From: a virus
Virus record (IMG/VR): IMGVR_UViG_3300043331_000510
Span: 1 to 43,434 of that record
Direction: 5' to 3' (one strand)
Length of the DNA: 43,434 nt
Shown here: positions 1 through 40,375 of the stretch, one piece after another
Numbering within the stretch: the stretch's first letter is position 1
Layout of the letters: the number at the start of each line of letters is the position of its first letter
The notes under the pieces: generated by a model
Seen by the model: the letters and a program-made list of their open reading frames with translations, nothing else
Told to the model about the DNA's origin: nothing
The model's database searches: none
Made by a program: the position numbers and the translations under genes

Positions 1-21
1 CATATCCACCGGCGCTACCGA
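1..21. repeat. Terminal direct repeat, left copy
   Basis: The first 21 bases are identical to the last 21 bases of the window (43414-43434). This is the signature of a circular assembly graph or of a terminally redundant phage genome. Merging the copies leaves about 43,413 bp and keeps the tail spike reading frame in phase (830 codons including stop), which supports a true join rather than a chance match. Confidence 0.93.
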
Positions 22-1984
22 CTTGATTACTAAGAATCTGCAATCCTTGATTATCTAATGCAACAAGATTGGGATGCGGGCCGTCGGCTCCAGTAAAGTT
101 TTCAGTTATTGGATTAGACGCAAGGAAGCCTGGATCAGTTGGAAATGTTCCACCACCTGTACCACCACCACATGCTGATGGGATCGTTCCTAACGCAGTT
201 TCTATTTCTCCCTTAACACTAACTGTTCTGCGAACAGGAAATGTATATGGCGTTCCGTTGGAGTTACGGCAATTAGTTCCTGCCGCAGCATCACAACGAA
301 TCTGTGCGAATGTATATCCATCACCATAACGCCCCGCGGCCGCTGTGGCAGCAGCAATACGATCTTCCATTGGCCACGGGAACAATGGAGTTGTTCCTGT
401 GACTCCATATGCAGTCATTGTATGAATACCCGATTGTGTATCAGTCGTATTAATACGTGTACCATTTTTCACAGAAGATAGACTAAATGCGTTAGCAGTT
501 AGCCCGGTCGGATGCACGAAGTATGTATTAGTTGCCTCTGTTAGAAGCCCACCAGGAAGTGTACCAGTAGTTTTAAGACGAACCATTTGGTGTGCTTCTA
601 GCCCATGACTATTCCACGTTACGACACCTGGGGACGCAATAGTAATTGTAACAGTTGCCGATTTATCTTCGGTACGAAAGCACATCCGCGCGCCGGTATT
701 GGATGTATTTTGCCATGGATCTTGTACCGCAGCAAGAGACGTTCCAGTAGAATGTCCTGTTACTTCACTGCCGGTTCCAGCATTTGTCCAGTCAGAATGG
801 ACGCGATAGCCAGGGCCTTGTGTAAAACCGCTACCTGCTGGTAAACTGCCCGTGATCGATGTCAAACGACGAATGCGATTTTGTTCAACGGGTATAGTAG
901 CATCCTGCGTTGTTCCAGGCGCATTGTTGGGTGTTCTAGCTAGACCAAACGCATGGACTTGATTGAAATCGGCATTAGTAGGTGCGATAGCTGCAATAAC
1001 ATCCTTGTGATCGAAGCTAGACATGCCATTACCACGGAATACCGTAGAAACCTGACCACCGTTTGTCTCGCTTCGCGCTAAAGTAGGAATATGGTCGGTG
1101 GCTTTAAAATATGCTATACAACCAATACAACGAATGTTATTGTGCTTCGGTACAGTCGTATCCTCAACCCGATCGACGCTGATGATGCCATGAAAACCAC
1201 ATATCTCAAAATTAGTCTTGGTCTCGACTGGTGCAGCGCAAATGTATGTATGCGGTGTTGCCTCATTGGAAGTATATGTTGCTATAGCGTTTTCCCAAAT
1301 GGACTCACGACCATGATAAGCCATTGAAATACTATGACTTAAAGATTGATGGCCATGACCGTCCATCCAGACACGACGAAAGACGTTACGTTTCCCACCA
1401 TTCTGAATCGTCTTCCTGCCAACACCAAAACCACAGATGTCTTCGAATGTTTGATTTGTTCCACCAACGTTCCAAGGCATAGCGTTGGTATTGAATTGTG
1501 TATCCCATGCGCAAATACGTCTATAGGTAATAAAATTACCACGGGCATTTACAACAGATCCATTGCTAGAACCTGTAGCACCACTATTACGCGCATTAAA
1601 TCCTTCAAACACTAAATGGTTATTACCACTACTTATAAGTAGTGGCTCTCGTGCAAACTCACCATCGATGGTTACGGCTCCATCATTAATTGCGCGGACA
1701 GTTACTGGAAGTGCGAATGTACCGGAGAAAGTTGACGGCGGGAAGATTCTATAATTCGCACCTTTAAATACACCATCCATCAAACATAAAGTCTTACCTG
1801 GCATCTGGGCCACCGGCAGAATGGTCCAAAACTTGTTAATAGAAAATGGTGTTGACGTTGTCAAACCATTATTGGCGTCTGAACCTGTAGGCGATGGAGC
1901 AGCATAGTAATCACATGGTGCCTGTTGTGCAGACGCTACACCGATGCTAACTAGAACTAGGACTAGCGATAGAAGAAATTGCAT
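1..1984 (-). CDS. Secreted-type tail spike with beta-helix domain, 5' part (continues at 43413-42908)
   Basis: N-terminal 661 codons of an approximately 829-residue protein that crosses the window join. The ATG at 1984 follows GGGAG at 7 nt. It begins with a classical signal peptide (MQFLLSLVLVLVSIGVASA, then QQAP). Next comes a parallel beta-helix / pectate-lyase-like domain: the start YYAAPSPTGSDANNGL is the usual opening of such polysaccharide-acting spikes, followed by repeated short strands and NG/GG turns to about residue 430. The role inferred is binding or cleaving host surface polysaccharide at the tail tip. It overlaps the upstream exported-protein gene by 22 bp and lies in the late operon between tail genes. 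A Sec leader on a spike is odd, because virions assemble in the cytoplasm. No catalytic residues can be assigned with certainty, so depolymerase activity is an inference. Confidence 0.8.
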   Translation of the reverse strand, partial: MQFLLSLVLVLVSIGVASAQQAPCDYYAAPSPTGSDANNGLTTSTPFSINKFWTILPVAQMPGKTLCLMDGVFKGANYRIFPPSTFSGTFALPVTVRAINDGAVTIDGEFAREPLLISSGNNHLVFEGFNARNSGATGSSNGSVVNARGNFITYRRICAWDTQFNTNAMPWNVGGTNQTFEDICGFGVGRKTIQNGGKRNVFRRVWMDGHGHQSLSHSISMAYHGRESIWENAIATYTSNEATPHTYICAAPVETKTNFEICGFHGIISVDRVEDTTVPKHNNIRCIGCIAYFKATDHIPTLARSETNGGQVSTVFRGNGMSSFDHKDVIAAIAPTNADFNQVHAFGLARTPNNAPGTTQDATIPVEQNRIRRLTSITGSLPAGSGFTQGPGYRVHSDWTNAGTGSEVTGHSTGTSLAAVQDPWQNTSNTGARMCFRTEDKSATVTITIASPGVVTWNSHGLEAHQMVRLKTTGTLPGGLLTEATNTYFVHPTGLTANAFSLSSVKNGTRINTTDTQSGIHTMTAYGVTGTTPLFPWPMEDRIAAATAAAGRYGDGYTFAQIRCDAAAGTNCRNSNGTPYTFPVRRTVSVKGEIETALGTIPSACGGGTGGGTFPTDPGFLASNPITENFTGADGPHPNLVALDNQGLQILSNQVGSAGGY

Positions 1985-2955
1985 ATGATATCTCCCGATG
2001 CGACAGCGTCAGTGTCATTGTCAGCAAAACCAGTTGTTAGTCGACTTCCCATCGCTGTAGCGAATGCAACACCTTCTGCTGGAAAGTTTGGGCTATGACC
2101 ACCGCCAGCAGTATTGCCAGGAATAATGAACTTCATATATACGGTACTTCCTGATGTTGGTGCTGCAAGTTCATAAAGTTTGAGATATCGTACCGCCGCA
2201 TTGATATTGCTACACGAGAATCCATATAAAATTCCGGCGCTAGCTTTAATCTGATTCTGATCTTGATTAGCGGCGCCCGTCGCTGGATAGTAATCAACAA
2301 GTGTACCATTTTCCGGACTAATAACATAAGCCGCACCAGTAGTCGGATCACACCGTAGTGGCGCCTGATTGCCTTCTGTCCATGACGGATTAGAAGCAGT
2401 AACTTTACACGGAATAGTGGCGTGCTTATTTGATGCATTAGATGAATTATCCGCATGGACACCAGCACCAATCCAAGGACTAGTTTGCTGTGTGACACCA
2501 ATATCGTTACTGACGCTTACCGAGCCACCAACCGTGGCCGAACCACCACCGCCATGGATACTAACATACATGACAATATTAGCTGTTCCGGAGATAGTAT
2601 CGTCACCTGTTACGCGCAGATGTGTAACAGGCTTCGTTAAAGCCCAATGCCCATTAACATTAGTTGTAGATCCAACAACAGACCCGTTAACTGAGCCTAG
2701 CTCTAATGGGAAGAAGCTAACCTTACCATCGATAGAACCCCAGAACTTTAATGGACCAGTCCAAGAGCCGGTAACTTGAACAAGACCATTGGAAGCACCT
2801 TGTGTCGATAACTCGATACAAGCACCTGGCGTACAGCTACCATCTGTAGCTGTCTCCTCTGCGGTAATATTGCCTTTGACGCTGGCAATTTGTGCTTCTG
2901 CTGTTGTTGCGACAAGAAGCAGAAGGAAGACGATAAGACTAAACAGTCGCGTCAT
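1963..2955 (-). CDS. Exported, probable virion-associated beta-rich protein
   Basis: A 330-residue protein. The ATG at 2955 is preceded by GGAG at 7 nt, so I prefer it to an upstream in-frame start at 3072 that would overlap two genes. It opens with a strong signal peptide (MTRLFSLIVFLLLLVATT, then AEAQ, a good AxA-type cleavage site). The rest is rich in Gly, Ser, Thr and Val with few charges, four or more cysteines (GSCTPGAC pair, IPCKV, LRCDP, FSCSN), and looks like beta-sandwich or fibre material. The family is not recognised. Placement directly upstream of the signal-peptide spike, overlapping it by 22 bp, suggests the two act together at the cell surface or tail tip. Confidence 0.75.
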   Translation of the reverse strand: MTRLFSLIVFLLLLVATTAEAQIASVKGNITAEETATDGSCTPGACIELSTQGASNGLVQVTGSWTGPLKFWGSIDGKVSFFPLELGSVNGSVVGSTTNVNGHWALTKPVTHLRVTGDDTISGTANIVMYVSIHGGGGSATVGGSVSVSNDIGVTQQTSPWIGAGVHADNSSNASNKHATIPCKVTASNPSWTEGNQAPLRCDPTTGAAYVISPENGTLVDYYPATGAANQDQNQIKASAGILYGFSCSNINAAVRYLKLYELAAPTSGSTVYMKFIIPGNTAGGGHSPNFPAEGVAFATAMGSRLTTGFADNDTDAVASGDIICNFFYR

Positions 2956-3989: not shown

Positions 3990-4147
3990 TTCGTTGACAA
4001 GAGCTTCACCTCAGTCTTGGCAACTGCGATGCCAATAATCGAATCATGTTGCTGTTGTGTTATGACACCTTTTGCTACAGCTTCCGTAAGCACTTGTTCA
4101 ATCGGCTTGACTGGCTTCGTGGATGATGTACGGGCGGGGCTATTCAT
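3986..4147 (-). CDS. Small hypothetical protein, 53 aa
   Basis: The ATG at 4147 overlaps the stop of the tail-fibre gene (ATGAATAG), and its TGA at 3988-3986 overlaps the GTG start of the PLA2-like gene. It is therefore wedged in frame between two genes with coupled translation at both ends. The protein is a basic, Ser/Thr/Pro N-terminus followed by a helix (residues 17-50, IEQVLTEAVAKGVITQQQHD). No family is recognised. Without it there would be a 150-bp gap in an otherwise gapless operon. Confidence 0.65.
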   Translation of the reverse strand: MNSPARTSSTKPVKPIEQVLTEAVAKGVITQQQHDSIIGIAVAKTEVKLLSTK

Positions 4148-5639
4148 CGATAGCCTCGTCGTACCATCCTCTATCTGCGATCATCAGCTTTGTTGAGCCG
4201 TCGGTTGCAGATACGCGACTCCGAATAGTGCCTGTTGTGGAGACCGGAAGCATCATCGCTTGGGCAGCGAATGTGTTTTGTGCTCCTGCACGCAACGTGT
4301 TTAATGGTGATGCAGTTGAAGAAGGCGCAAGGTCAACAGCTGCGACTGGACTAATATAAGCACCAACGGCGCTACTGGCGTGGTTTCCAACCATCACATT
4401 GATAAGAGCTTGTACATGGCTTAGGCCGGTAATGACTGCAAGTGTATGAACAACGGCGTTGGTGTTAGCGGGATTAGTGTCAATCGTTAAGACAGGAGTC
4501 TTGCGAATGAAATAACGTCCGACTTGTGTGATTGGAACAATCACACCACCTTCACGACGGAACGAAAAGATACGACGCTTCTTCGTGCCGCCATCAGGCA
4601 CTGTAGGCGCAAGGCTTTGCTCTGCAAAGATATCGTCAGCACCACCGCTACGACGGAAAGCGTAGCAGTGCCAGACACCGTCTGCAAGTGCGCCGACGCG
4701 CATTCCAGCCCCTGTGCCTGCCGCCCATGCCGCATCTATTTGCTTAGTCATGGCGCCCGGCGCTAACAAGACTCTGTTAGCGGCTAATGCGTCATCACTA
4801 ATACATTCACCTGCTCCAATATCAATGTCATTAGTCGCGTCAACGCCGTTGTTAGCAAACTTCATGCCCCATAGATAACCACGCGACGCAGTCGATGAAA
4901 TAGTGAGAGCACCACCAGCGCCACCATCAACAATACTAATACCGACGCCTGCTGTAATAACACGTTCTACGGTTAGCTCACCGTGGGCTGCAAGAACGAT
5001 AAATTGCGCGCTGTTAGGTGCAGCACTAATCTTCCCACGACCCGCTGAGTTATTAGTTAACTCAATAGCATTCAGCAGGTCCTGAATTGTCGCAGCCGCG
5101 ACACCTGTACCACCTTTGCCAATACTTACAGGGTCAGGCAGCGTGCCAGCGAGAGCCATCACGGCCCACTTGATCCTATTCGCTGCGTTGTCCCAATATG
5201 CAAACTTTCCATCAACCGTTGACCCAACATCGTCAATATCAATGTCTTTCTTAAGAGATTTCTTGCCAAACTTGATAGCTCTGCCAAGAGCCTCTCGCAG
5301 CATCTGGCTGACAAAGCCCGCCTTTTCAAAGTCCTTCTGAATTCTTAATGAGGGGAAATCTTCACCAGACTGATAAACTGACGTGACTGAGACAGGTTGC
5401 TTCCGCATGATTGCCAATGGCTTGCCATTTGCAACCGCGACGGTTGTGGTGATAGTACCACCACCATCAACACCCGCACCTGTTACGGTGTAGTCTACAT
5501 CAAGCACCAATGTAACACCATCAGCAATAACTTCAAGCTCAGTCTTGTCCCAAATCTTGAAGCCATAGGCCCACGGACCTAGTGTGCTACCATCACCAAC
5601 ATGGTTGTTGCGACCGTCGTGGTCGGGTAGACCGCTCAC
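4140..5639 (-). CDS. Tail fibre protein with T7 gp17-like N-terminus
   Basis: A 499-residue protein. Residues about 20-150 resemble the T7 gp17 N-terminal tail-attachment domain: YGFKIWDKTELEVI, then VLDVDYTVTGAG, then LAIMRKQPVSVTSVYQSGEDFP, which is the usual strand/turn succession, followed by helix-forming residues up to FGKKSLKKD. The remainder is Gly/Ala/Thr-rich beta material typical of a fibre shaft and receptor-binding tip. GTG start 5639 has CGGAGG 6 nt upstream and overlaps the previous TGA. It anchors to the tail tube (gp11/gp12-like proteins at 37.5-40.4 kb). The late operon also encodes a beta-helix spike, so the virion may carry two receptor-interacting proteins. Confidence 0.85.
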   Translation of the reverse strand: MSGLPDHDGRNNHVGDGSTLGPWAYGFKIWDKTELEVIADGVTLVLDVDYTVTGAGVDGGGTITTTVAVANGKPLAIMRKQPVSVTSVYQSGEDFPSLRIQKDFEKAGFVSQMLREALGRAIKFGKKSLKKDIDIDDVGSTVDGKFAYWDNAANRIKWAVMALAGTLPDPVSIGKGGTGVAAATIQDLLNAIELTNNSAGRGKISAAPNSAQFIVLAAHGELTVERVITAGVGISIVDGGAGGALTISSTASRGYLWGMKFANNGVDATNDIDIGAGECISDDALAANRVLLAPGAMTKQIDAAWAAGTGAGMRVGALADGVWHCYAFRRSGGADDIFAEQSLAPTVPDGGTKKRRIFSFRREGGVIVPITQVGRYFIRKTPVLTIDTNPANTNAVVHTLAVITGLSHVQALINVMVGNHASSAVGAYISPVAAVDLAPSSTASPLNTLRAGAQNTFAAQAMMLPVSTTGTIRSRVSATDGSTKLMIADRGWYDEAIDE

Positions 5640-6842: not shown

Positions 6843-7946
6843 CTAGTTCTCGAGGACTTTGAGCTCGACGACACCAGCTTCCCACACGCGAACGGCGCCC
6901 TGCATCATGGGCTGCCGGATCTGGAGCGGGTTGGACTGGAGGTCGGGCCGGTTATTGATCTGTGGGTTGCTGATGGGTCGGCCGATGCTCAGACCCATAG
7001 CTCCCCGGTGGAAAGCGTATAGGAAACGGTCGGTGCCCGAGATCGGGAGCATCCGCTGGAGCACGTTCAGGCTTGGATCGATGACGTCCTGAACCATGAC
7101 CCAGAGGAAGCCTTCCCATTCGATCCCGTTCACCGTGCCGGTGTCGTGGATCTTGTGCTTGGTGAAGTCTGATGAAGAGGCCTGAGTGATGGCCAGGATA
7201 TCACGTTCCTGGCCCGGGCCATAGAGCATGACCCTCTGGTTGGCGCCAACAGGCACAGATGCCTTGGACATCAACTCGTTGGCGTTGATGATGAGGCTCA
7301 GTGCCGTCGCGACACCTGTCCCGATCTTGCGACTTGACGGCAGAGCCTGACTGCCATGGGTGATGAGGGCACCCGCACCCACAGCGGCTGTGGCGGCCAC
7401 GCCTCCGAGACCGTCGATGAGATGCTTGTCGGCGCGCCGGCCACAGGCCGCGACGATAGTCTGGAGGAACTTGTTGTTGGGGTTGACCATCATGCGGAGC
7501 GTATACTCGTCTGCCACCAGAACTGTGGCGTCGCTTGAGACGAGGGGACACGCCCGCCTGCTGGCCTCCGGGTTGAGGACCTTGGTAGGGCCGTAGGGCA
7601 CGATGACGTCGTTGGCGATGACGTTGCCTAGCCGTTCGTGATAGTCGATGGCCGCATGAACGTCGCGGTTGACCATCTCGGGAGCGATCAGACGCTCCAG
7701 CTGAGAGCCCATCTGCTGGTAGACCATGTGGATGGTGTCATGGAACTTTTGAATCCACCACTGTTCCAGATTGACCGTTCCACGCTGGTTGGCCACGAGA
7801 GGCCAGAACCACGTCGACGCGTCGTCGACCTTCTCCAAAAGGTCGAAGGCAGCCTTGCTTGCGATGTCTACGACGCTCGTGAGAGCGACGAGCACCGCCA
7901 GGGTGGTCGCTGCCGACCAACCCTTTAGCTTCGCTAGAAGCTTCAT
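6843..7946 (-). CDS. Major capsid protein
   Basis: A 367-residue protein with ATG 7946 and a very strong SD (AGGGAGGAG, 7 nt). It follows the scaffold and a small HTH gene. The segment around residues 130-200 (VLVADEYTLRMMVNP, then FLQTIVAACGRRADKHLIDGL, then VAATAAVGAG) matches the pattern of podovirus HK97-fold capsid proteins of the Bordetella BPP-1 type: D-x-M-x-DP-type linker, GRxxDxxIIDAL, and a Gly/Ala-rich A-domain loop. It forms the procapsid with the scaffold. Unusually, it begins with a basic n-region and about 18 hydrophobic residues (AATTLAVLVALTSVVDIA), then SKA, resembling a secretion signal or anchor. Codons are strongly C/G-ending, as expected for the most abundant phage protein. 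Confidence 0.8.
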   Translation of the reverse strand: MKLLAKLKGWSAATTLAVLVALTSVVDIASKAAFDLLEKVDDASTWFWPLVANQRGTVNLEQWWIQKFHDTIHMVYQQMGSQLERLIAPEMVNRDVHAAIDYHERLGNVIANDVIVPYGPTKVLNPEASRRACPLVSSDATVLVADEYTLRMMVNPNNKFLQTIVAACGRRADKHLIDGLGGVAATAAVGAGALITHGSQALPSSRKIGTGVATALSLIINANELMSKASVPVGANQRVMLYGPGQERDILAITQASSSDFTKHKIHDTGTVNGIEWEGFLWVMVQDVIDPSLNVLQRMLPISGTDRFLYAFHRGAMGLSIGRPISNPQINNRPDLQSNPLQIRQPMMQGAVRVWEAGVVELKVLEN

Positions 7947-9146: not shown

Positions 9147-9429
9147 GACTGACTCCATTATCCGCGGTTGCCTCAACAACATACTTCTGCGGGCTCACCG
9201 CGAGGTCGATTTGCTTAAGGATCTCGTGGACAGCGCTACGCCGACCATTGTGCGTTGCCATTTCAATGGGGTCGTTGCCCTCATAAACGGTGCAATAGAC
9301 GTTGTCCAGGAGATCCTGAATGACAACCTTTCCATAGATGGAATTGAAGCAGTGCATATAGGCGATGGGAACGCCCATCGGCTTTCTAATCCAAGCGCGT
9401 TCGAGCCATGACCAAACGGTGCTAAACAC
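9136..9429 (-). CDS. Bbp19-like head module protein
   Basis: A 97-residue protein. GTG 9429 has GGAG 6 nt upstream and lies 8 bases inside the portal gene end; an in-frame GTG at 9453 is a weaker option. The C-terminal half (YGKVVIQDLLDNVYC, then YEGNDPIEMATHNGRRSAVH, then EILKQID) matches the pattern of the Bbp19 family of small podovirus proteins (VLxDLxxFC, GNDPxxxAxxEGRRxVxxxIL), encoded between portal and scaffold. The exact role is unknown even in well-studied relatives. It overlaps the scaffold gene by 11 bp, so the two are translationally coupled. Confidence 0.75.
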   Translation of the reverse strand: MFSTVWSWLERAWIRKPMGVPIAYMHCFNSIYGKVVIQDLLDNVYCTVYEGNDPIEMATHNGRRSAVHEILKQIDLAVSPQKYVVEATADNGVSHAG

Positions 9430-11110
9430 GAGCGGCTCCGTTCTGTCGCCCACCCTGAACTTCGTTCAAAGTCTTAACTGCTGGCGCGGCGTTCTTTGCG
9501 ATCTCGGATACAGCTTGAGCATCGGCAAGCTGTAGCTCTTTCTGCTCCTGCTCCGCACGTGCCTCGCGCAACGTGGCAACTTGGGCCTCAGAACGACGCC
9601 ACTTGGCAGGTACGCCACGTGTATTCAGGATGCCTTTCATGGTGTCATCAGGCTCGACCCAATCAAGCATCTGCGGGAAGCGTTCCCATAGCGGAGCTGT
9701 GTCGTTAAGGGCGAACATGAGAGAGTCGGCGTCGCCGCTCCGCATCGCCCTAGCGATCGGATTGTCAAATTGAACAGCGATCTGTCCGCTTGTCTGTTCG
9801 ACAATTGGAGGAGGAGGCGGGAAGGCGCGCCCCCACCATAGAGTGTCCCAGATGATGTCTACTTCTGGATATAGCCACTCCCACTCTAACCGACCATAGA
9901 CTGGACCAATAAGTCTGAAGATAAGCTCAATCTTTCTGGCAAACTCCAGCGCGGTCATCTCACTCTTATGGATTTCCAATAATGCAAGGATCTGCTCTAC
10001 ATAGAAGATTTGTCTGATACTCTTACGAAGCTCTTCTTCTTTAATCTGGCTGACCTCTGGCTTGGAGCCCGTCTCCCAAGGCATGATGACATGTTGGATT
10101 GGCTTATTATGCGTGTTAACCGACACAGGGAATCCTGGCTTGACACCAATAGTCCCATGGACCGCATCATGTGCATGCATCATAGGCGGCCTGATCTTCA
10201 ATGCCCAATCTTCAAATCCCATCCTTTTTGCAGTATTAAGAGTCATCGAATCAGGGAATGCAAGATCGCCGCGACCACGACCATACGGGTCTGGCCCGGG
10301 AGTACGATGATACCGTGGGCTTGACCCGGGGAACATCCTATAACCGCTCTCGTACATAACTGTCTTGGTCTCGTGCTCAACCCAACACGATGCCCAGGGC
10401 ATTCCGCGGTATCCCGCACCTTGCTCGCTTCTAGCACGTGGGTAGATGGAATGAGTGACGTCGAAGACGTCGTCCGGGCGGCCCTCGTTGATAGCCTTAG
10501 TAACTTTTTCTGGAATACGCCCATCCTGCTTATTCCCCCAAGCGTCCACAATATTACGAGCAGACATTGTGAAATCACGCATTGCGGTGTCTACACGACC
10601 ATCTACGCCTTCAGCAATAAGGAACCTGCCGGTTCGTGATGCGGAGAAATGAAAGCCTCGGAAGCCCGGGATAACCCGGTTTGAGGGCTGAGGACGCTCC
10701 TCATTCATCGTGAAGCCTGTTCCAAAACCAATCCAATCTACGAGGCTTTCAGCCCCCTCAGCGTAGAATGAGCTTGCGCTCAGATGGCGCAGGGCGATAT
10801 CACGACACTCCTCCAGCCACTCATTTGTATCGTCATCATCTGCCAACTCTGGCATGGAGAAGCCTAGCCAACGCTGTGCAGGATTGATAATGTGACCTGC
10901 GATGAAATGTGCCGCAAGCTCAGCCGCCATCATCGTGGTGCTATCATATTGGTCACTATTTTGACTACTTCCAATAGGCAACGCTCCAGTGATTCCCTTG
11001 CGAGATGGCGCAAGGAGAGGAGCCATCCTGTCCCATTTCTGGTCGTGCCCGCTTCGCTGTTGAAGCAAAGCTTCACGACGCTTCATAATAACCGTGCCGT
11101 TAGCTGGCAT
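9422..11110 (-). CDS. Portal / head-tail connector protein (Bbp21, T7 gp8 type)
   Basis: A 562-residue protein from ATG 11110 (GTG 11116 possible). It starts with the typical MKRREALLQQRSGHDQKWDR helix, then LLAPSRKGITG, SDQYDSTTMMAAELAAHFIAG, and the wing segment DWIGFGTGFTMNEE. It has a collar-type portal middle with FPDSMTLNTAKRMGFEDWAL, a Pro-rich loop FPPPPPIVEQ and a helical, Gln/Ala-rich C-terminal barrel. These features place it in the podovirus head-tail connector family. It forms the dodecameric DNA channel that docks the terminase (encoded just upstream) and the tail-tube proteins. Length is usual for the family. Confidence 0.88.
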   Translation of the reverse strand: MPANGTVIMKRREALLQQRSGHDQKWDRMAPLLAPSRKGITGALPIGSSQNSDQYDSTTMMAAELAAHFIAGHIINPAQRWLGFSMPELADDDDTNEWLEECRDIALRHLSASSFYAEGAESLVDWIGFGTGFTMNEERPQPSNRVIPGFRGFHFSASRTGRFLIAEGVDGRVDTAMRDFTMSARNIVDAWGNKQDGRIPEKVTKAINEGRPDDVFDVTHSIYPRARSEQGAGYRGMPWASCWVEHETKTVMYESGYRMFPGSSPRYHRTPGPDPYGRGRGDLAFPDSMTLNTAKRMGFEDWALKIRPPMMHAHDAVHGTIGVKPGFPVSVNTHNKPIQHVIMPWETGSKPEVSQIKEEELRKSIRQIFYVEQILALLEIHKSEMTALEFARKIELIFRLIGPVYGRLEWEWLYPEVDIIWDTLWWGRAFPPPPPIVEQTSGQIAVQFDNPIARAMRSGDADSLMFALNDTAPLWERFPQMLDWVEPDDTMKGILNTRGVPAKWRRSEAQVATLREARAEQEQKELQLADAQAVSEIAKNAAPAVKTLNEVQGGRQNGAARV

Positions 11111-11252
11111 CGTCACTCTGTGGGTTCGGGCTTAGCCGTCCAAAGTCCTCACGACGTCTCTGTGTCTCCAATAAGCTAAGATAGTTAATGTCCAGCCAAC
11201 GCTCGACTGTGCGAGGACCACAGGCGCGTGGCGCGAAGGTCGTGTCAACCAT
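11100..11252 (-). CDS. Small hypothetical protein upstream of portal
   Basis: A 50-residue reading (ATG 11252) that ends 11 bp inside the portal start. An alternative TTG near 11288 would overlap the preceding stop and give about 62 residues, closing the gap. The sequence has RTVERWLDINYLSLLETQRR, a short amphipathic helix pair. No family is recognised. Small proteins at this point between large terminase and portal are common in podoviruses. It is kept because the operon otherwise has almost no gaps. Confidence 0.5.
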   Translation of the reverse strand: MVDTTFAPRACGPRTVERWLDINYLSLLETQRRREDFGRLSPNPQSDDAS

Positions 11253-11280: not shown

Positions 11281-11538
11281 TTAAGACCCAAAGGTCTTCG
11301 CCAATGCCTTGGTGTATGAATCATCAGTCATCATGCGCTTGGCCATTACCGTGCTCCTGTAGCCACGCGCCATCTGCCTCCGACGGAGGGCTTCCGCCTG
11401 TGCCTCCTGAACTTCTTTGTCTGTTTCCTTCGGAGGTTGTTTCGGTTCTGTCGGACGAGGTGGCGATGGTGATCCACCAAAGTGGCGCCTGAAGTCGGGC
11501 GCGCGGTTGTATCTGCCTCGGCATCCCTTAACCACCAT
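11281..11538 (-). CDS. Small head-module protein between terminase and portal
   Basis: An 85-residue protein. ATG 11538 overlaps the terminase stop by 11 bp. The N-terminal half is basic and Pro-rich (SPSPPRPTEPKQPP), the middle helical, and the end carries ARGYRSTVMAKRMM, similar to the RRRGxxSTIL tail of the small proteins found next to terminase in many podoviruses and siphoviruses. Its function in those phages is undefined. Position and motif make it a real head-module gene. Confidence 0.7.
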   Translation of the reverse strand: MVVKGCRGRYNRAPDFRRHFGGSPSPPRPTEPKQPPKETDKEVQEAQAEALRRRQMARGYRSTVMAKRMMTDDSYTKALAKTFGS

Positions 11539-12892
11539 AAGGAATCCTTGGGTCGAATGCGCTGTCTACTTTGACCTGGTCGCGCTCACGACCATAGAAC
11601 ATGCTGGTATTGAGGATAGGCTCCCAGCCGACTTCTGTCCCTGTTCTATAAGCATCAGCCGCGTGTGAATGTTCATCATGAATAGGCTTGGGCATGAAGA
11701 CACGCTTCTCTTCATCGTATTCAGCTTTGTACTTCTTGAGATGCTCAATGCCGATGGCACAGTTGACTTCGTCAAAATAGCTAGTGTAAAGGTCACGACG
11801 ACAATCCTGAATGCTTGTCCACACACTCGCCGTGCGCTTTTCCATCACATTAACATTCTTGAAATGGACCTCTTCGAGGTAATTGGCAGCGGCCCGTCCA
11901 TCCCAAGGTAGACAGATACGCCCAAATGAATAAGGTGTCTCTTCTCTTGCATAACGTGCAAAATCTTTGATTTCTTTCTGCTGCCACTCCTTGTATCTAA
12001 TGAACAACTTCTTGTTCATGAAAATCTGATAGAACCAGGCGGCCATGTGGTCACTGTGGCCAAGATCCAACACTACTCCCACAGGGAGTAGCGGATCATA
12101 TGGCACGCGGGTGATGCGGCCATCGGCGGCAGCCTGCATCATATGCTGACCATAAATAGTTCCATATTGGTATCCTTGGAATGCACAATAATATTCACGT
12201 TGGATATCCTGCTCGCTCTTCCCGTCTCGCCTTTCACCTTCAATAGCCTCAGGTGTAATGACTGGACCACCATTCTCGCCGACTGCGTCACGCCGTGTAT
12301 CGTCAACTGTGAGAACCTGGGAGAACCAACGCTCGGGGTCTGCTTGTGCGGTCTTGAGGAGCTTGTGAAACCAGTCGTCTTCGACATTCGGCGTGGAGAT
12401 GAAAGCTGCCCATCCACCGTTCTCTGCAAGGACGGGTGAAAGAACCTCCCACGCCTTTGGATTCATGAAGCCAGCTTCGCTATAGACTAACCCATAAGGG
12501 TTAGGACCGCGAAGCTTCTCAATCGCCTTCTCATCCTCGGCGCCCATGATCTGATATCGGGCGCCAGTTGTTGTGTGCGTAATGGACATCTCTGCCTCGT
12601 TCCGCAAGAACCCGAGTTCTTGGGGGAACATGTCAATCATGCGAGACTTCTTCCCGCTAGACTCTGTAATCATATTGTCCCATACGTCTCGACGTCCTTG
12701 GTTTAATGCGGGGAAGATGTGGAAATAGGTGGCGGGGTGTTCTAGCATGTCTTCAAAGATGATAGACATCCAATTGCGATCCTTACCGCCACGACGATGA
12801 ATCGCTTCGCAAAATCTCTTCCAACCGGCGCGCTTGGCCCGCCATGTCTTCATCTGATAACTACGACGACCGAAGAGTAGGCGCTCAGACAT
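11528..12892 (-). CDS. terL: Terminase large subunit
   Basis: A 454-residue packaging motor. ATG 12892 shares a base with the previous stop (TGATG), with GAGGAAG upstream. The ATPase half has a phage-type P-loop HRRGGKDRN at residues about 32-40, a Walker B-like YGLVYSEAGF (catalytic Glu follows) and a coupling motif AAFISTPN. The nuclease half has VVLDLGHSDH as first metal aspartate, LPWDGRAA in the middle, and DEHSHAADAYR with the final metal ligand. It cuts concatemers and translocates DNA through the portal. It cannot be assigned to a packaging type (cos, pac or direct repeat) from the sequence alone. Confidence 0.92.
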   Translation of the reverse strand: MSERLLFGRRSYQMKTWRAKRAGWKRFCEAIHRRGGKDRNWMSIIFEDMLEHPATYFHIFPALNQGRRDVWDNMITESSGKKSRMIDMFPQELGFLRNEAEMSITHTTTGARYQIMGAEDEKAIEKLRGPNPYGLVYSEAGFMNPKAWEVLSPVLAENGGWAAFISTPNVEDDWFHKLLKTAQADPERWFSQVLTVDDTRRDAVGENGGPVITPEAIEGERRDGKSEQDIQREYYCAFQGYQYGTIYGQHMMQAAADGRITRVPYDPLLPVGVVLDLGHSDHMAAWFYQIFMNKKLFIRYKEWQQKEIKDFARYAREETPYSFGRICLPWDGRAAANYLEEVHFKNVNVMEKRTASVWTSIQDCRRDLYTSYFDEVNCAIGIEHLKKYKAEYDEEKRVFMPKPIHDEHSHAADAYRTGTEVGWEPILNTSMFYGRERDQVKVDSAFDPRIPYGG

Positions 12893-13425
12893 CAATCCAC
12901 TTCCTCGTCACTGAGGATGCGGAATGCTTCGTCCGAAGGACGACGAGAGGTGGCCTTCTGCCGAACCGGCATGGCTAAAGAGGGCACGTCGATAACGACA
13001 GGGGCCACCTCTGTGTGATCCGCCTCGGGAGGCAGCTCCCCCACGGGAGCTATGTCGACGACGTCAGCTAAAGCATTGTCTTGCCCTCCTATGATGATGC
13101 GAACACCGCCATCAGCGCCTACCTCAACCCGCACCTCAGGTGGCATGGGTCTGAGGTCTTTCTCGCGGACATATAGGCCGCCGACGCTGAACACTTTGTC
13201 GATGGCGCCTTGGCGGGCGGCGTTGTCCGCAAGAGTCTTGGTATGCTTAATCTCACCTTTGTGAGTGATGAATTCAGTCTTAGTGGCATCTAGTTGTTCG
13301 TCTAGGCGGCGCCACGCTTTATTCATAATGTCGGCTGGCACAGCCACACGTTCCATTACCCTACGACGCACCGCGTCGGCTGACATTGTCATGGGGCGTT
13401 CGTTTAGAGCTAGCTTATCGCTCAT
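12892..13425 (-). CDS. Probable terminase small subunit
   Basis: A 177-residue protein from ATG 13425 (TTG 13431 is the other choice). It ends on the terminase large subunit start (TGATG). The N-terminal half is helical and basic (AVRRRVMERVAVPADIMNKA, then WRRLDEQLDATKTEFITHKG), and the C-terminal half is acidic, Pro/Val-rich and probably flexible, ending in a short acidic EEVD. That order is common in small terminase subunits, which recognise the genome and feed it to the large subunit. There is no diagnostic sequence motif, so the call rests on position and layout. The gene at 13415-13735 is the rival candidate. Confidence 0.6.
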   Translation of the reverse strand: MSDKLALNERPMTMSADAVRRRVMERVAVPADIMNKAWRRLDEQLDATKTEFITHKGEIKHTKTLADNAARQGAIDKVFSVGGLYVREKDLRPMPPEVRVEVGADGGVRIIIGGQDNALADVVDIAPVGELPPEADHTEVAPVVIDVPSLAMPVRQKATSRRPSDEAFRILSDEEVD

Positions 13426-23832: not shown

Positions 23833-25158
23833 ATGACAACGCAACCTGAGACCGTGGAGATCGAGATTGAAAAGATCATTATCGCCGCAGACCGCCAGAG
23901 GACAGAAGACGATGAGGACAAGCTTGCCGAACTTGTCGAAAGCATTAAGAACAACGGCCTTATCAATCCCATTGTTATCGACAGAGAACATAAGCTTATT
24001 GCTGGATTTAGACGCATACAAGCGTATAAGAGACTCGATCAACAGAAGATCAGAGCGACATATTTTGAAAGCCTTGAAGCCCTCGACCAGAAGATCATCG
24101 AATTCGACGAGAATGACAAACGCAAAGACCTCACATGGCAGGAGCGCGCCCGTGCAATCAAAGAAATCTTCGATCTCCAAAAAGCAAAAGCCCAAGCAAC
24201 AAGTCCAGAAAGATGGACTGCGTCCGACACAGCTCGTAGCCTCGGGGTCAGCGTGGGCAAAGTCTCAGAGGACCTTAGTCTTGCGGATGCTCTGGGCAAT
24301 GAAAGAGTCGCCGGGCGTCCAAGCCGTAGAGGTGCTCTCGACACACTTAAGCGGGAAAGGGAGCTTGAACTTGTGCGGGAGATTGCGCGTCGACGGGCCG
24401 CTGGAATTGGAATTCCAACTGGCTTGGTATCCACGACCTTCACGTCTGGCGTCGTCTACCACGCCGACTGTCGAACAGTCCTTGCCGGAATGGCGGAAGA
24501 AAGTGTAGACTTGGTGATAATGGACCCGCCGTGGGGCATTGACTTTAACAACGCAGCCCAATGGACAAAAAAATGGATAGCGAGCTACGACGATTCGGCG
24601 AATGCAGTCAAAGCGATGCTGACGGAATTGGTGCCTCAATTACACCGGGTTCTAAAGGTCGGCGGGCACATATACTCATTCTTTCCGATTCAGGAACCTC
24701 AGTGGTGGGGCGAATTGTTCATGTCTGCAGGATTTGCCATCAGACAGAGGCCATTGATCTGGTTCAAGAGTGGCCAGCCGGGGATTACAGACGTCTACAC
24801 AAGTTTCCTGCCGTGCTACGAATCGATCCTATGGGGCTACAAACCTGGCCCGGAGAACACAAGGAGACTGTTCGCCCGTCCGATACCGGAAGCACAGGGA
24901 TGGCCACGCCAGGCGGGCCTGTGGCACGAGAACGAGAAGCCCGTCGAGATGTTGGACAAGTGGATGGAAGCGAGCAGCGAGATCAATGAGGTTGTGTTAG
25001 ACCCATTTGGAGGCGGCGGGTCGACGGCCGCTTCGGCGTTTGGCCTTGGTAGGTACTTCATAACGAGTGAGGTCGACGACCTTAACTACGCCAAGCTGTG
25101 TCAACGGATCAAGACGTTGGAGGAGAGGAAGGAGGAACAAAACAATGCCGACGTGTAA
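23833..25158 (+). CDS. ParB-domain / DNA adenine or cytosine-N4 methyltransferase fusion
   Basis: A 441-residue two-part protein with SD AAGGAG. Residues 1-155: ParB N-terminal nuclease-like fold (NGLINPIVIDREHKLIAGFR, with GFRR at 58-61) and HTH (SDTARSLGVSVGKVSEDL). Residues 205-430: beta-class amino methyltransferase with motif IV DPPW (231-234) first and the AdoMet motif I (LDPFGGGGSTAASAF) near the C-terminus. Linker rich in Arg. It probably modifies phage DNA at an unknown site to evade restriction, the ParB part steering it to DNA. Fusion of these modules is known in other phages. Confidence 0.9.
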   Translation: MTTQPETVEIEIEKIIIAADRQRTEDDEDKLAELVESIKNNGLINPIVIDREHKLIAGFRRIQAYKRLDQQKIRATYFESLEALDQKIIEFDENDKRKDLTWQERARAIKEIFDLQKAKAQATSPERWTASDTARSLGVSVGKVSEDLSLADALGNERVAGRPSRRGALDTLKRERELELVREIARRRAAGIGIPTGLVSTTFTSGVVYHADCRTVLAGMAEESVDLVIMDPPWGIDFNNAAQWTKKWIASYDDSANAVKAMLTELVPQLHRVLKVGGHIYSFFPIQEPQWWGELFMSAGFAIRQRPLIWFKSGQPGITDVYTSFLPCYESILWGYKPGPENTRRLFARPIPEAQGWPRQAGLWHENEKPVEMLDKWMEASSEINEVVLDPFGGGGSTAASAFGLGRYFITSEVDDLNYAKLCQRIKTLEERKEEQNNADV

Positions 25159-25327
25159 AGAATGTCAACAGAAATTCGACGAAGAAAGTGAAGGTACAGT
25201 CGTCGAAACTGTAGCTGACGATCCAGAGGCTGATTTTCCTGACCCGCCAGCATATATGGTTCATATTGCCTGCTACGCAAAATTGCATAACGAGATAATC
25301 AAGCGTATAGGCGATTTGTACGAATAA
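25145..25327 (+). CDS. Small zinc-finger-like protein, 60 aa
   Basis: ATG 25145 overlaps the methyltransferase end by 14 bp, with GGAGG upstream; TAA overlaps the polymerase ATG (TAATG). PTCKECQQKFDEES (CxxC) and HIACYAKLHNE (C...H) could bind one zinc. It precedes the polymerase gene directly. Function unknown. Confidence 0.55.
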   Translation: MPTCKECQQKFDEESEGTVVETVADDPEADFPDPPAYMVHIACYAKLHNEIIKRIGDLYE

Positions 25328-27003
25328 TGCCAGTCATAGCATCAGGTCCTAAACAATGTAAGATAATGTTCGTCGGCATGGGACCCGCCCAAGAGGAGGT
25401 TCGGACAGGTGTACCGTTTATGGGACCCGCGGGCATGGTATTCAACAAAAGTCTCAAAAAGCTTGGCGTCTCCCGTTCGGACGTATACGTTACGAACGTT
25501 CACGATGAGTTTCTGGCGCCAGGGACATCACTGTTCAGTCTCCCTTCTGAGAAACTCACACGTAGTGTGCAGCGTCTCGCGGCTGAGATTAAGTCGGTTC
25601 AACCAAACGTGGTTGTTCCGATGGGAGACGAGCCTCTTCACTTCATTACTGGACTTAGCGGTATCACCAAATGGCGTGGCAGTATCGTGCCGTCTACACT
25701 TGTGCCGGGCGTTAAGTGTGTCCCAAGCATCCACACGGCCTGGATCATCAGAGGAATGTGGAAGTGGGAGCCAGTCTTCACACACATAGATATTAAGAGG
25801 GCGCTAGATAACATTGACTACCCTGAAATCAGATTGCCAAAGCAAGAGGCGATTACTGGTCCGTCTTATAACACGGTCCTTGATTACATACACGAATGCG
25901 AACAACACGAAGAACTCGTATTCGACTATGAGATTTTCGATTACGAGAATCATTTGGGACAAGTCAGCTGTGTCGGTATTGGACATAAGCCAGAACAGGC
26001 ACTCACTATACCGTTTACGAAGCATGGAAATCATATGCACTACTGGACACTTGAGCAAGAAGCTAACATTTGGTTACGTCTGGCGCATCTATTACAGAAT
26101 CCCAACATTAAGAAATCGAATCAACACCTAGCATTTGAATGGATATATTCCTGGGCACATAAGATGTATCCAGCAAATCCTTGGATCTGCACAATGGAGC
26201 TTCATCAGTCTTTATATCCTGACTGGGGGCAAACCGAAGATGTCTTCCAAAGCCGACGTAAGAATATGGACGAACCAGGACATGGCCTTGCTTTTATCGT
26301 ATCACATTATGGTGATGGAATTAACTATTATAAAGATGATGGACGAAAATGGATACCTTCCTATGGAGATCATAAGTTTTGGGAGTATTGCGCCAAAGAC
26401 GTCATGTCGACATTCTACTGTAAAAATAAGATGTATGAAGAAGCAGTAGAGAACAACCAATGGGACATCTACGTAGGATGGAACCAACGACCATTCCTTC
26501 ACAAACTTCGGAATGAGTGGCATGGTTATGCGGTCAATACTGGACTACGTGAAGAAGTCGGCAAAGAACTTGTGAAAGAAATTGACGCCCTGCAGAAGCA
26601 AATCAACGAGCGCGTGGGTTATGAACTCAATGTCAATAGTTCTAAGCAGATGCAGGATTATCTTTACAAGCGTATGCAATACACGCCTAAGACCAAGGTT
26701 GTCTATAACAAGAAGAAAGGTATCCGTGAGAGACGGATAACGAGTGATAAAATCGCTCTGCGAGAGCTACAGGCGAAGCATCAGGACGAAGTCCTGTTTT
26801 GGGTAGATGAACTTCGAGCCAAGCGCGACTTGAAGGGTGATATTGTGGATCAGAGGCTAGGTCCGAGTGGCCGAATGCACACGCATTTTGGTATCACTGA
26901 TACCAATAGATGGACCAGCGGCAAGAGTATTATAGGCGTGGGAACGAATATGCAAAACGTCCCGGTTAAGGGAATAGCCAGACGGCTATTCACGGCGGAC
27001 TAA
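25327..27003 (+). CDS. polA: Split DNA polymerase I, N-terminal half (UDG-like, 3'-5' exonuclease, thumb)
   Basis: A 558-residue protein. Residues 1-165: family-4 uracil-DNA-glycosylase-like (FVGMGPAQEEVRTGVPFMGP, with H136 in VPSIHTAW) but without the CxxC pair of true Fe-S UDGs. Residues about 195-380: 3'-5' exonuclease (Asp200-x-Glu202 in FDYEIF; NQHLAFEW; YCAKDVM). Residues 395-558: thumb and first palm part, ending RRLFTAD and a stop exactly where motif A should follow. The missing palm and fingers are encoded at 27621. The next ATG abuts the TAA. The two halves must assemble in trans for activity. ATG 25327 shares a base with the previous stop. Confidence 0.9.
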   Translation: MPVIASGPKQCKIMFVGMGPAQEEVRTGVPFMGPAGMVFNKSLKKLGVSRSDVYVTNVHDEFLAPGTSLFSLPSEKLTRSVQRLAAEIKSVQPNVVVPMGDEPLHFITGLSGITKWRGSIVPSTLVPGVKCVPSIHTAWIIRGMWKWEPVFTHIDIKRALDNIDYPEIRLPKQEAITGPSYNTVLDYIHECEQHEELVFDYEIFDYENHLGQVSCVGIGHKPEQALTIPFTKHGNHMHYWTLEQEANIWLRLAHLLQNPNIKKSNQHLAFEWIYSWAHKMYPANPWICTMELHQSLYPDWGQTEDVFQSRRKNMDEPGHGLAFIVSHYGDGINYYKDDGRKWIPSYGDHKFWEYCAKDVMSTFYCKNKMYEEAVENNQWDIYVGWNQRPFLHKLRNEWHGYAVNTGLREEVGKELVKEIDALQKQINERVGYELNVNSSKQMQDYLYKRMQYTPKTKVVYNKKKGIRERRITSDKIALRELQAKHQDEVLFWVDELRAKRDLKGDIVDQRLGPSGRMHTHFGITDTNRWTSGKSIIGVGTNMQNVPVKGIARRLFTAD

Positions 27004-27315
27004 ATGCCAGAGGCCGACCGCGTGACGAGACTCGTTGAGGAGTGGCGGAGGTTGCTGGAGAGCGTCGCCAAAGCACCGTGGGTGTTGCGGGAGCCGAATC
27101 GCGAAGAACGCGAGGAGTCTTGGGACATCTACTGTTCCAGCGAAACGTGGCCCGGATTCAACGACCTGTCGATGATGCCCGAGCGCGAAGGCCGTCTCAT
27201 CGTCTGGATGCGCAACCACGCGGAGGAGATCATCGCCGCGCTGGAGAGCCAACAGCGGGGGAGCGGGAGAAATGATGCCAAAAGAACTGCTTTTAGACGT
27301 TATTCTAAAAGTTAA
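27004..27315 (+). CDS. Insert gene 1 inside split polymerase
   Basis: A 103-residue protein; ATG directly follows the polA-N stop. It is GC-rich compared with its flanks, Arg/Glu/Trp-rich and helical (VTRLVEEWRRLLESVAKAPW, then REGRLIVWMRNHAEEIIAAL). No endonuclease, intein or family motif is visible. Codon use unlike its neighbours suggests recent arrival. Confidence 0.6.
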   Translation: MPEADRVTRLVEEWRRLLESVAKAPWVLREPNREEREESWDIYCSSETWPGFNDLSMMPEREGRLIVWMRNHAEEIIAALESQQRGSGRNDAKRTAFRRYSKS

Positions 27316-27442
27316 CGCTTTGATGAGAGCAAACGCGATTAAGCTTGTGTGCATAGGATGTGGTAAAGAGGCCACCCAAATATGCTTCCGTTGTCAGCAA
27401 TGTGATGAATGTCACAAGGGGTTTAGGTTTCCATGTCATTGA
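27272..27442 (+). CDS. Insert gene 2: small zinc-ribbon protein, 56 aa
   Basis: ATG 27272 (or ATG 27275) with GGGAG upstream, inside the end of gene 1. The C-terminal half VCIGCGKEATQICFRCQQCD, then ECHKGFRFPCH, carries three CxxC-type pairs plus CH, a dense two-zinc ribbon. Stop overlaps the next ATG by 10 bp. It could help hold the split polymerase together, but that is speculation. Confidence 0.55.
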   Translation: MMPKELLLDVILKVNALMRANAIKLVCIGCGKEATQICFRCQQCDECHKGFRFPCH

Positions 27443-27624
27443 TTGACGATGTCATTGCGGATTTTCGTAAGTTTATTGCCGAACACGGAACTGAGCCTGC
27501 ATATATTTCAGTGTCACCTGAGGTTTACGAAAGGCTTAAAGCCGAGTTTGGTCAACTAATGGAAATTAAAGATGAGTTGAAATTTAGCAAATTCATGGGG
27601 CTTGAGATTCGCGTAAGAGAATGA
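27433..27624 (+). CDS. Insert gene 3: small protein, 63 aa
   Basis: ATG 27433 overlaps the zinc-ribbon stop; TGA at 27622-27624 overlaps the polA-C ATG (ATGA). Short helices (DDVIADFRKFIAEHGTEP, YERLKAEFGQLMEIKDEL) and ends GLEIRVRE. No family is recognised. Confidence 0.55.
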   Translation: MSLIDDVIADFRKFIAEHGTEPAYISVSPEVYERLKAEFGQLMEIKDELKFSKFMGLEIRVRE

Positions 27625-28481
27625 AGAAAAAAGTCTGGATAATGTGTGACTACAGCCAAGCGGAGATACGCGTGGCCGCCTGGAAAGGTCCCATTCCAGC
27701 CATGAAGACGTGGTTTCAGCGAGGTGAGGACATCCATATAAATGTGGCACGTTTGATTGGCAAGGTGGTGCATGAGGCTAAAGTAGACATGCCATTCATC
27801 AAGGGTTCAAGAGAGATGCTATGGAGGCGTAAGCCACCGGAGGAACTAAATGCAGATGACAAAACAGATAACGAGAATGAGCGAGATTTATCCAAACGAA
27901 CAGTACACGCTAACACTAACGGAATGTGGAAGAATCGCTTCGCACTTATTACAGGTCTTCCCGTGCCAATTGCAGGCATTGTTCAAGACACATATCATGG
28001 GCTATTCCCTGAGATACGTGGCAATTATCACAAGGGTATCCAAAACGAGGTACTCAGTAATGGTGGCACGTTGGTCAATCCGTGGGGGTGGCCACGCACC
28101 TTCTATAAAATCAACCCGTTTACGGGTACATACGATGAAGACGAGTTGCGAGTCATGTACGCGTGGTATCCTCAGTCGACTATTGGTATGCTTACGGTTA
28201 AAGCGTGGACTGAGATGTGTTCGATCTTTGAGGGAATCTACACTCCAAGACTTTGGAAACCGAGTGAGATCGTTAGACTCGGCCTTGACTGTCGACTACA
28301 AGTTCATGATCTGGTCGGAGTCTCATGCGAAGATGATCCCGTTGCCATTAGGGAGACAGCAACACAAATGAAGAAGTGTGGCGAGATACCAATGGTCATC
28401 AATAACGAAGAGTTGATAGTACCAATGGACTTTAAGGTGGGACCATCATGGGGAGAGATGAAGAAGTACGTGCTACAATGA
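27621..28481 (+). CDS. polA: Split DNA polymerase I, C-terminal half (palm and fingers)
   Basis: A 286-residue protein. Motif A IMCDYSQAEIRV (D10) is at the very start, motif B RDLSKRTVHANTNGM at 88-102, motif C LQVHDLV at 226-232 (D230). It supplies both catalytic aspartates and the nucleotide-binding helix missing from the 25327 gene. ATG 27621 overlaps the stop of insert gene 3. Oddities: in the fingers helix the position of the conserved Tyr before Gly is Asn100, and the residue after HD in motif C is Leu rather than Glu. Whether these reduce activity is unknown. Its TGA overlaps the next ATG. Confidence 0.9.
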   Translation: MKKKVWIMCDYSQAEIRVAAWKGPIPAMKTWFQRGEDIHINVARLIGKVVHEAKVDMPFIKGSREMLWRRKPPEELNADDKTDNENERDLSKRTVHANTNGMWKNRFALITGLPVPIAGIVQDTYHGLFPEIRGNYHKGIQNEVLSNGGTLVNPWGWPRTFYKINPFTGTYDEDELRVMYAWYPQSTIGMLTVKAWTEMCSIFEGIYTPRLWKPSEIVRLGLDCRLQVHDLVGVSCEDDPVAIRETATQMKKCGEIPMVINNEELIVPMDFKVGPSWGEMKKYVLQ

Positions 28482-37367: not shown

Positions 37368-37519
37368 CCACCACCCTCCTCAACAATCTTAAGCGCCTCC
37401 TCTTTTGTCGACGCGATGCCTGTTAGAATTTGATCTGTGTAGATTTCATACATATTATCATATGTATAGACCCAACCAATCTTACGCTTCTGCCATCGTC
37501 TTTTAACTGTGGTCGCCAA
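37352..37519 (-). CDS. Small basic protein downstream of tail tube B
   Basis: TTG 37519 has GGGGAGG 6 nt upstream, placed inside the end of the gp12-like gene; this beats the TTG at 37543. Gives 55 residues: KRRWQKRKIGWVYTYDNMYE, then ASTKEEALKIVEEGGGWSQI. No family is recognised. Confidence 0.6.
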   Translation of the reverse strand: MATTVKRRWQKRKIGWVYTYDNMYEIYTDQILTGIASTKEEALKIVEEGGGWSQI

Positions 37520-39758: not shown

Positions 39759-40375
39759 TAACGCCTAACTCGCGTCAAATCATCCGTTAAGAATGGGTGT
39801 TGACTACCTTCTTGACTGTCAATAGCAGCGCCAAGTGGCATTAGTAAGCCAATCGCCTCCTGAATCTTAGCGACCGCCTTCTGCCAGTCCTTATTGATAG
39901 CTGCTGCAAGCTTGCCGGCAAGCCAGACTTCTAAAGTCTGGTGAAAAAGAGGCGACCATATCGTCGGATTGTCAACATCTTTGGTAAATAAGATAGAAGC
40001 TTGACCGTAGTTGGTCAAAAGGCTACGTCCTTCAATTCGATGATACGAAGTCATGCCTATTGGATACTCACTCCAGTTAATCGCCAGTGGTTCGGCCGCT
40101 GTTGCAGGGTTGGCGCCATAAAATTGCTTAACTTTGATGACATACTCTGGAAGAGTATAAGAGAATGCGAAGCCGAAGGCAGGCGTCGTAGCAGAAACGC
40201 CTAATTTCATGCGATCTTCTGCAAAATTCCAATCGTATAACGATAACAGGGCGCGTCGTAGCGGAACATAGTATGTTTTGCACCAATTTGCATTTTGTGT
40301 TCCATCATCGATGCCCCCAATTGGACCTGCACCAATCTGACCAAGCGCGCCGTTGAGGAATTCAGCTTCTGTCAT
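39758..40375 (-). CDS. Tail tubular protein A (T7 gp11-like)
   Basis: A 205-residue protein; ATG 40375 overlaps the FkbM stop (TAATG). FLNGALGQIGAGPIGGIDDG, then RRALLSLYDWNFAEDRMKL, then ASILFTKDVDNPTIWSPLF, and a helical LAGKLAAAINKDWQKA match gp11 adaptor proteins, which link portal and nozzle. Length is right. Confidence 0.9.
   Translation of the reverse strand: MTEAEFLNGALGQIGAGPIGGIDDGTQNANWCKTYYVPLRRALLSLYDWNFAEDRMKLGVSATTPAFGFAFSYTLPEYVIKVKQFYGANPATAAEPLAINWSEYPIGMTSYHRIEGRSLLTNYGQASILFTKDVDNPTIWSPLFHQTLEVWLAGKLAAAINKDWQKAVAKIQEAIGLLMPLGAAIDSQEGSQHPFLTDDLTRVRR

Follow-up and report, generated by a model that had tools for sequence, protein, structure and literature searches.

Adjacent genes for adhesin-like proteins with predicted Sec signal peptides in the structural module of an uncultured podovirus

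Three adjacent genes of an uncultured podovirus (a short-tailed phage with a circular genome) encode proteins that look like phage adhesins, judged by their homology to adhesin-type proteins of tailed phages, and that open with predicted Sec signal peptides. The first-pass annotation had described them as virion-type proteins with genuine export signals, and export indeed looks real, since the signal peptides begin at supported starts, the phage homologues lack them, signal-peptide genes recur in the structural modules of two more phages (L004 and G001), and the pattern is rare elsewhere. Assembly of tailed phages is described as cytoplasmic. The reading that we put forward, in what is close to an even call, is that adhesin-type phage proteins have gained Sec signal peptides at the level of their genes, undergo export and processing, fold outside the cytoplasm and join the particles at lysis.

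Genome context

The window, that is, the whole stretch of 43,434 nucleotides that was analysed (IMGVR_UViG_3300043331_000510), carries an exact 21-bp terminal repeat and is read as a 43,413-bp circle. Followed along the minus strand, the order is a terminase-like gene (11528-12895, matching phage terminases), a portal-like gene (9422-11116, which we take to be one from its place in the order), the capsid gene (6843-7946, PF19821), a tail fibre gene with a T7-type N-terminal anchor and without a signal peptide (4140-5639, PHROG 1640 and others), the three signal-peptide genes, a glycosyltransferase-like gene (40994-41596, PF01501 below its cut-off at E 0.002), an FkbM-type methyltransferase gene (40375-41055, PF05050 above cut-off at E 1.5e-6), the tube genes and the internal virion protein genes. 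The tube genes comprise one in the tail tube A position, assigned by order (39758-40375), and that of tail tube protein B (37503-39758, PHROG 376, E 2e-133), which serves as the downstream anchor of the module. Relatives of tube protein B occur in HTVC010P, Carin1, BcepC6B and BPP-1 (24-32% identity among the matches listed). Scans of IMG/VR with the 330-aa, 440-aa and capsid proteins confirmed no close relative. The glycosyltransferase-like and methyltransferase genes (40375-41596, minus strand) adjoin the signal-peptide genes and share an operon with them; their products might modify the adhesins or host glycans.

Start sites and predicted signal peptides

All three signal-peptide genes lie on the minus strand. 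That of the 330-aa protein (1963-2955 including the stop) starts with the ATG at 2955, which follows a Shine-Dalgarno GGAG (2963-2966) by 7 nt, and the N-terminus reads MTRLFSLIVFLLLLVATTAEA up to the predicted cut, with Q as the next residue (signal peptide residues 1-21, 2893-2955; score 17.6). The 829-aa spike-like protein starts with the ATG at 1984, again 7 nt from a GGAG (1992-1995), and reads MQFLLSLVLVLVSIGVASA before the predicted cut and Q after it (residues 1-19, 1928-1984; score 16.3). Its first part (residues 1-661) occupies 1-1984 and its last part 42908-43434, the frame staying open through the 21-bp contig join as far as the stop at 42908. The 440-aa protein (41589-42911 including the stop) starts with the ATG at 42911, 9 nt from a GGAG (42921-42924), and reads MKLLLAVLIILLSFGVANA before the predicted cut and D after it (residues 1-19, 42855-42911; score 17.9); its start overlaps the stop of the spike gene as ATGA. 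The three starts are well supported, given GGAG at 7, 7 and 9 nt and the ATGA overlap, and the objection that true starts lie downstream of the hydrophobic stretches therefore fails. The earlier placement of the genes also holds: they are consecutive around the genome join, adjacent and overlapping, with the spike crossing the join, and they belong to a tail module in the sense of position, flanked by the T7-fibre-like gene (4140-5639) on one side and the tail tube genes (37503-40375) on the other.

Signal peptides were scored with a home-made heuristic (core hydrophobicity, n-region charge and A-x-A cut site) and not with SignalP; for reference, it gives 16.4 for E. coli OmpA, 15.0 for MBP and 11.0 for LacY, a membrane protein without a signal peptide. 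When every frame of 60 aa or more was scanned on either strand of the window, with a score of 14 and a four-base Shine-Dalgarno match required, these three frames alone passed, in agreement with the first-pass annotation, which had all of them open with signal peptides. Shuffling of the first 30 residues reached the observed score in 0 (330-aa), 0 (spike) and 2 (440-aa) of 3000 trials, and simple arithmetic for three random hits in ~50 genes puts the adjacency of all three by chance at ~48 in 19,600. A-x-A cut motifs stand directly after hydrophobic cores of 13-14 residues in each protein, inside the range for Sec and signal peptidase I (a core of 7-14 residues and an A-x-A-type cut at residue 15-35). 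The n-regions of the 330- and 440-aa proteins are positive (R, K); that of the spike holds neither Lys nor Arg and is a weak point. The tail fibre gave no match with the same heuristic. In the capsid protein (6843-7946, minus strand), ~58 residues precede the family match, and a hydrophobic stretch scores 13.2, below the signal-peptide cut-off.

The mature window proteins hold 26 Cys in 1540 residues (6, 16 and 4), as compared to 12 in 4843 in ten other virion-type proteins of the window (Fisher p 9e-9). An excess is also seen in L004 (8 in the 336 residues of the mature signal-peptide protein vs 24 in 3051; p 0.011), and the difference is not significant in G001 (27 in 2011 vs 24 in 2470; p 0.26), where three of the six signal-peptide proteins have odd counts. 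A homologue without a signal peptide, the 886-aa protein of L010, is rich in cysteine too (14), the L006 adhesin genes without signal peptides hold 13 in 2142 residues, and the 440-aa protein keeps just one of the seven cysteines of the aligned L010 domain, with three others of its own. For the window proteins, the cysteine content fits disulfide folding and is no proof of it.

Relatives of the mature proteins

The spike and the 440-aa protein have a common relative in a Manatee Spring podovirus (L010). This protein, of 886 aa, begins MTTYYIAPS, lacks a signal peptide and starts straight with a beta-helix-like part, with no anchor ahead of it (DUF1565 at E 1.2e-6; beta-helix models only below their cut-offs). 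Residues 22-422 of the 440-aa protein match its residues 462-861 (30% identity; E 3e-35 when the pair is aligned, 2e-20 when the collection is searched), and residues 26-161 of the spike match its residues 4-146 (28%, pairwise E 1e-4). The two domains of this single protein thus have their counterparts in two neighbouring genes of the window, both of which carry a signal peptide. Farther along, a segment of the spike (residues 441-525) matches tail proteins of rhizobial phages (up to 51%), and the C-terminal third of the 330-aa protein matches gp004c of Caulobacter phage S2B and gp046 of Caulobacter phage KSC (34-36%), both without signal peptides as annotated. In the 440-aa protein, the spike and a 168-aa protein of G001 (see below), homology to proteins without signal peptides begins just past the predicted cuts.

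Pfam and PHROG searches of the three window proteins gave no family at E 0.01, with only chance-level matches at E 10 for the 440-aa protein, and among their matches there was no virion anchor domain, no lysozyme or amidase domain and no short spanin architecture, the proteins having 330-829 aa; Pfam likewise gave no outer-membrane beta-barrel. Nothing convincing emerged from PDB sequence searches with the three proteins and the 168-aa protein of G001, and single-sequence AlphaFold2 models of the spike and the 440-aa protein (mean pLDDT 30.9 and 32.3) are too low in confidence to read a fold. Alignments of the spike C-terminus with a Manatee Spring protein and of the 330-aa protein with the L004 signal-peptide protein were not significant, and a genome-contig search with the 440-aa family alignment confirmed no relative. 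Alignment prompts the idea that an Ig-like domain may be common to the 330-aa protein, the 121-aa protein of G001 and small proteins of L004 and L006. In MW202742, a Manatee Spring phage (L006, 1977-5737), several proteins of the adhesin module have a short basic tail at the end (RRRKD, RRRRD), possibly an attachment tag; the window spike ends in KPWRRVR.

Recurrence and rarity

L003 and L004, the two IMG/VR matches obtained with the window tube protein B, carry one signal-peptide protein (score 17.6), encoded in the slot that the signal-peptide genes occupy in the window; the fibre and tube genes follow next. Together with L214, they are counted as one virus, since this protein is 100% identical among them (in L214 over its 169 residues). 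No relative was confirmed in a genome-contig search with the L004 tube protein B, and tblastn of the L004 signal-peptide protein and of a 244-aa protein of G001 against phages gave no match.

A longer run is found in G001 (IMGVR_UViG_3300021090_000069, identical to L061), where six consecutive signal-peptide genes, for proteins of 121, 463, 244, 680, 168 and 472 aa in this order, follow the tube and internal-virion-like genes. The 121-, 680-, 168- and 472-aa proteins score at least 14.7, each with a Shine-Dalgarno match; the 463-aa gene, which starts with TTG, scores 13.6 and has a weak Shine-Dalgarno, is a borderline case, and no Shine-Dalgarno match precedes the 244-aa gene. Domains are recognizable in the 680-aa protein (fn3 and CBM9), and residues 255-451 of the 472-aa protein have repeats in common with MW202742 (36.5%). 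The 168-aa protein matches PHROG 644 (unknown function; E 4e-9) and is 55% identical to a protein of MW202742 without a signal peptide. In a global alignment, the start Met of this homologue falls on residue 26, the last predicted signal-peptide residue, and the signal peptide of the G001 protein thus appears as an N-terminal addition. The single Cys of the homologue is replaced, and two new ones stand ~20 residues apart, a pattern that an oxidising compartment would favour. A further match of this protein, in cyanophage Pam1, was rejected as evidence for a 'needle head', because the annotation assigns it to the adjacent hypothetical gene, Pam1_09. With the tube protein of G001 as query, a viral scan recovered only the query itself.

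Elsewhere, the pattern is rare. A scan for tube protein B gave 120 loci among the matches listed, 109 of them after 11 without a tube frame were dropped, and among these a signal-peptide score of at least 13.5 occurred in a single locus, L061 (924 same-strand frames of at least 150 aa); in 82 of the 109, the sequence upstream of the tube frame extends for 2.5 kb or more, and many loci are short, so that signal-peptide genes farther away would be missed. None of 78 further loci had a signal-peptide match (646 frames; L003 and the L004 duplicate L134 left out). A scan of 15 annotated phage loci, covering 1325 frames of 100 aa or more from both strands, gave ten matches, none of them in an adhesin run: the annotated SAR endolysin and i-spanin of Caulobacter phage KSC, frames in L224 and L226 that resemble lipoproteins, a protein of 211 aa that precedes the terminase in Pelagibacter phage Baldr, a 363-aa protein away from the structural genes in L228, and four minus-strand frames that run against the structural genes or lie outside them. 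The signal-peptide-like Baldr protein (L009, 658-1293, plus strand) lies just before the terminase region.

Competing explanations

The main rival holds that the proteins are exported and never enter the virion, acting instead as glycan-binding or glycan-cutting factors in the periplasm, at the surface or outside the cell, for example by loosening capsule, masking receptors or excluding other phages. We regard this as a genuine possibility, although not a probable one. Every step shown, including the signal-peptide evidence, is common to such secreted factors and to docking on particles; moreover, no known anchor domain was matched by the three window proteins in Pfam or PHROG, their L010 relative begins with its beta-helix-like part, and a conventional fibre without a signal peptide is already encoded. 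Against this, the relatives sit in structural regions of phages, G001 is predicted to export a small protein of the general phage family PHROG 644 as well, and lysis would free adhesins even if they had no signal peptide. We know of no secreted role for PHROG 644.

The hydrophobic N-termini could alternatively stay uncleaved as membrane or virion anchors, to which the missing positive n-region of the spike would lend itself; this is unlikely in view of the A-x-A motifs directly after the 13-14-residue cores in all three proteins, and of homology to proteins without signal peptides that starts, in the 168-aa protein of G001 as in the spike and the 440-aa protein, just past the predicted cuts. 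Still less probable are passenger genes of the lambda Lom kind, that is, genes for outer-membrane or surface proteins of infected cells that sit among tail genes. Lom provides a precedent, being a signal-peptide-bearing protein encoded between the tail spike and fibre genes of lambda, as described in PMC12309495, and resembles the window genes in this respect. However, Lom is an outer-membrane barrel and no barrel family was matched in Pfam by the window proteins; the relatives found are phage proteins without signal peptides, and no integrase was noticed among the window genes read by eye. An artefact of wrong starts or a mis-joined contig, finally, seems very improbable: the spike gene does span the contig join, but Shine-Dalgarno sequences precede all three starts, the join repeat is exact with the frame open through it, and two of the three signal-peptide genes lie away from it.

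A possible route to the particle

Folding outside the cytoplasm followed by attachment to particles at lysis is favoured over secretion alone or membrane-linked assembly, the alternatives raised in the first-pass annotation, between which the sequence evidence does not discriminate. From established knowledge of Sec, the adhesins would pass SecYEG and their signal peptides would be cut by signal peptidase I. They would then fold, with disulfides, outside the cytoplasm, with heads and tails being built inside, until lysis mixes both pools and the exported adhesins could dock on particles beside the conventional, non-exported fibre. Points in favour of docking, the weakest step, are that the signal-peptide genes sit in structural modules and that G001 would export an entire module, of which a small general phage protein is part. 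More tentatively, several podovirus lineages may have moved adhesin modules to Sec, giving a split-compartment assembly of a tailed phage in which capsid and tail would arise in the cytoplasm, the host-binding parts would fold in the oxidising envelope, and lysis would first bring the two together. The recurrence of such signal peptides in two other phages suggests that the cell envelope is where some phages make their host-binding parts. Should adhesins indeed leave the cytoplasm first, lysis would count among the assembly steps and the host functions Sec and Dsb among the phage assembly factors, and disulfide-stabilised receptor-binding proteins would become possible; such phages could be recognised in genomes by a simple marker, a run of signal-peptide genes within the structural module.

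The individual parts have precedents. In filamentous phages, pIII and other coat and adhesin proteins of the virion have a Sec signal peptide and disulfides, as we read the window proteins; these phages assemble in the membrane without lysis, whereas the window virus, a dsDNA phage with a tail, has cytoplasmic capsid genes. SAR endolysins and spanins are also phage proteins that use Sec, and the same heuristic picks them up in phage KSC; there, however, they are short lysis proteins (114 and 162 aa), in contrast to the adhesin-like window proteins of 330-829 aa. The beta-helix spike and adhesin modules of Manatee Spring podoviruses MW202725 and MW202742 have adhesin-type domains homologous to those of the window and G001, yet lack signal peptides, and the 886-aa two-domain protein is split in the window into two signal-peptide genes. 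Phage adhesins, phage use of Sec and Lom among lambda tail genes (PMC12309495) are known. As far as searched, runs of signal-peptide-bearing adhesin genes in tailed phages are undescribed, no description having been found in open-licence PMC articles.

Other genes of the window

On the plus strand, DNA polymerase A comes in two pieces, encoded by separate genes between which two small frames intervene (25327-28481): the first (25327-27003) comprises UDG, exonuclease and the polymerase start, and the second (27621-28481) a later polymerase part, as compared to a single 826-aa gene in a Desulfofustis phage relative. Just before them, 23833-25158 (plus strand) reads, by eye from its translation, as a fusion of a DNA methyltransferase with a ParB-like domain.
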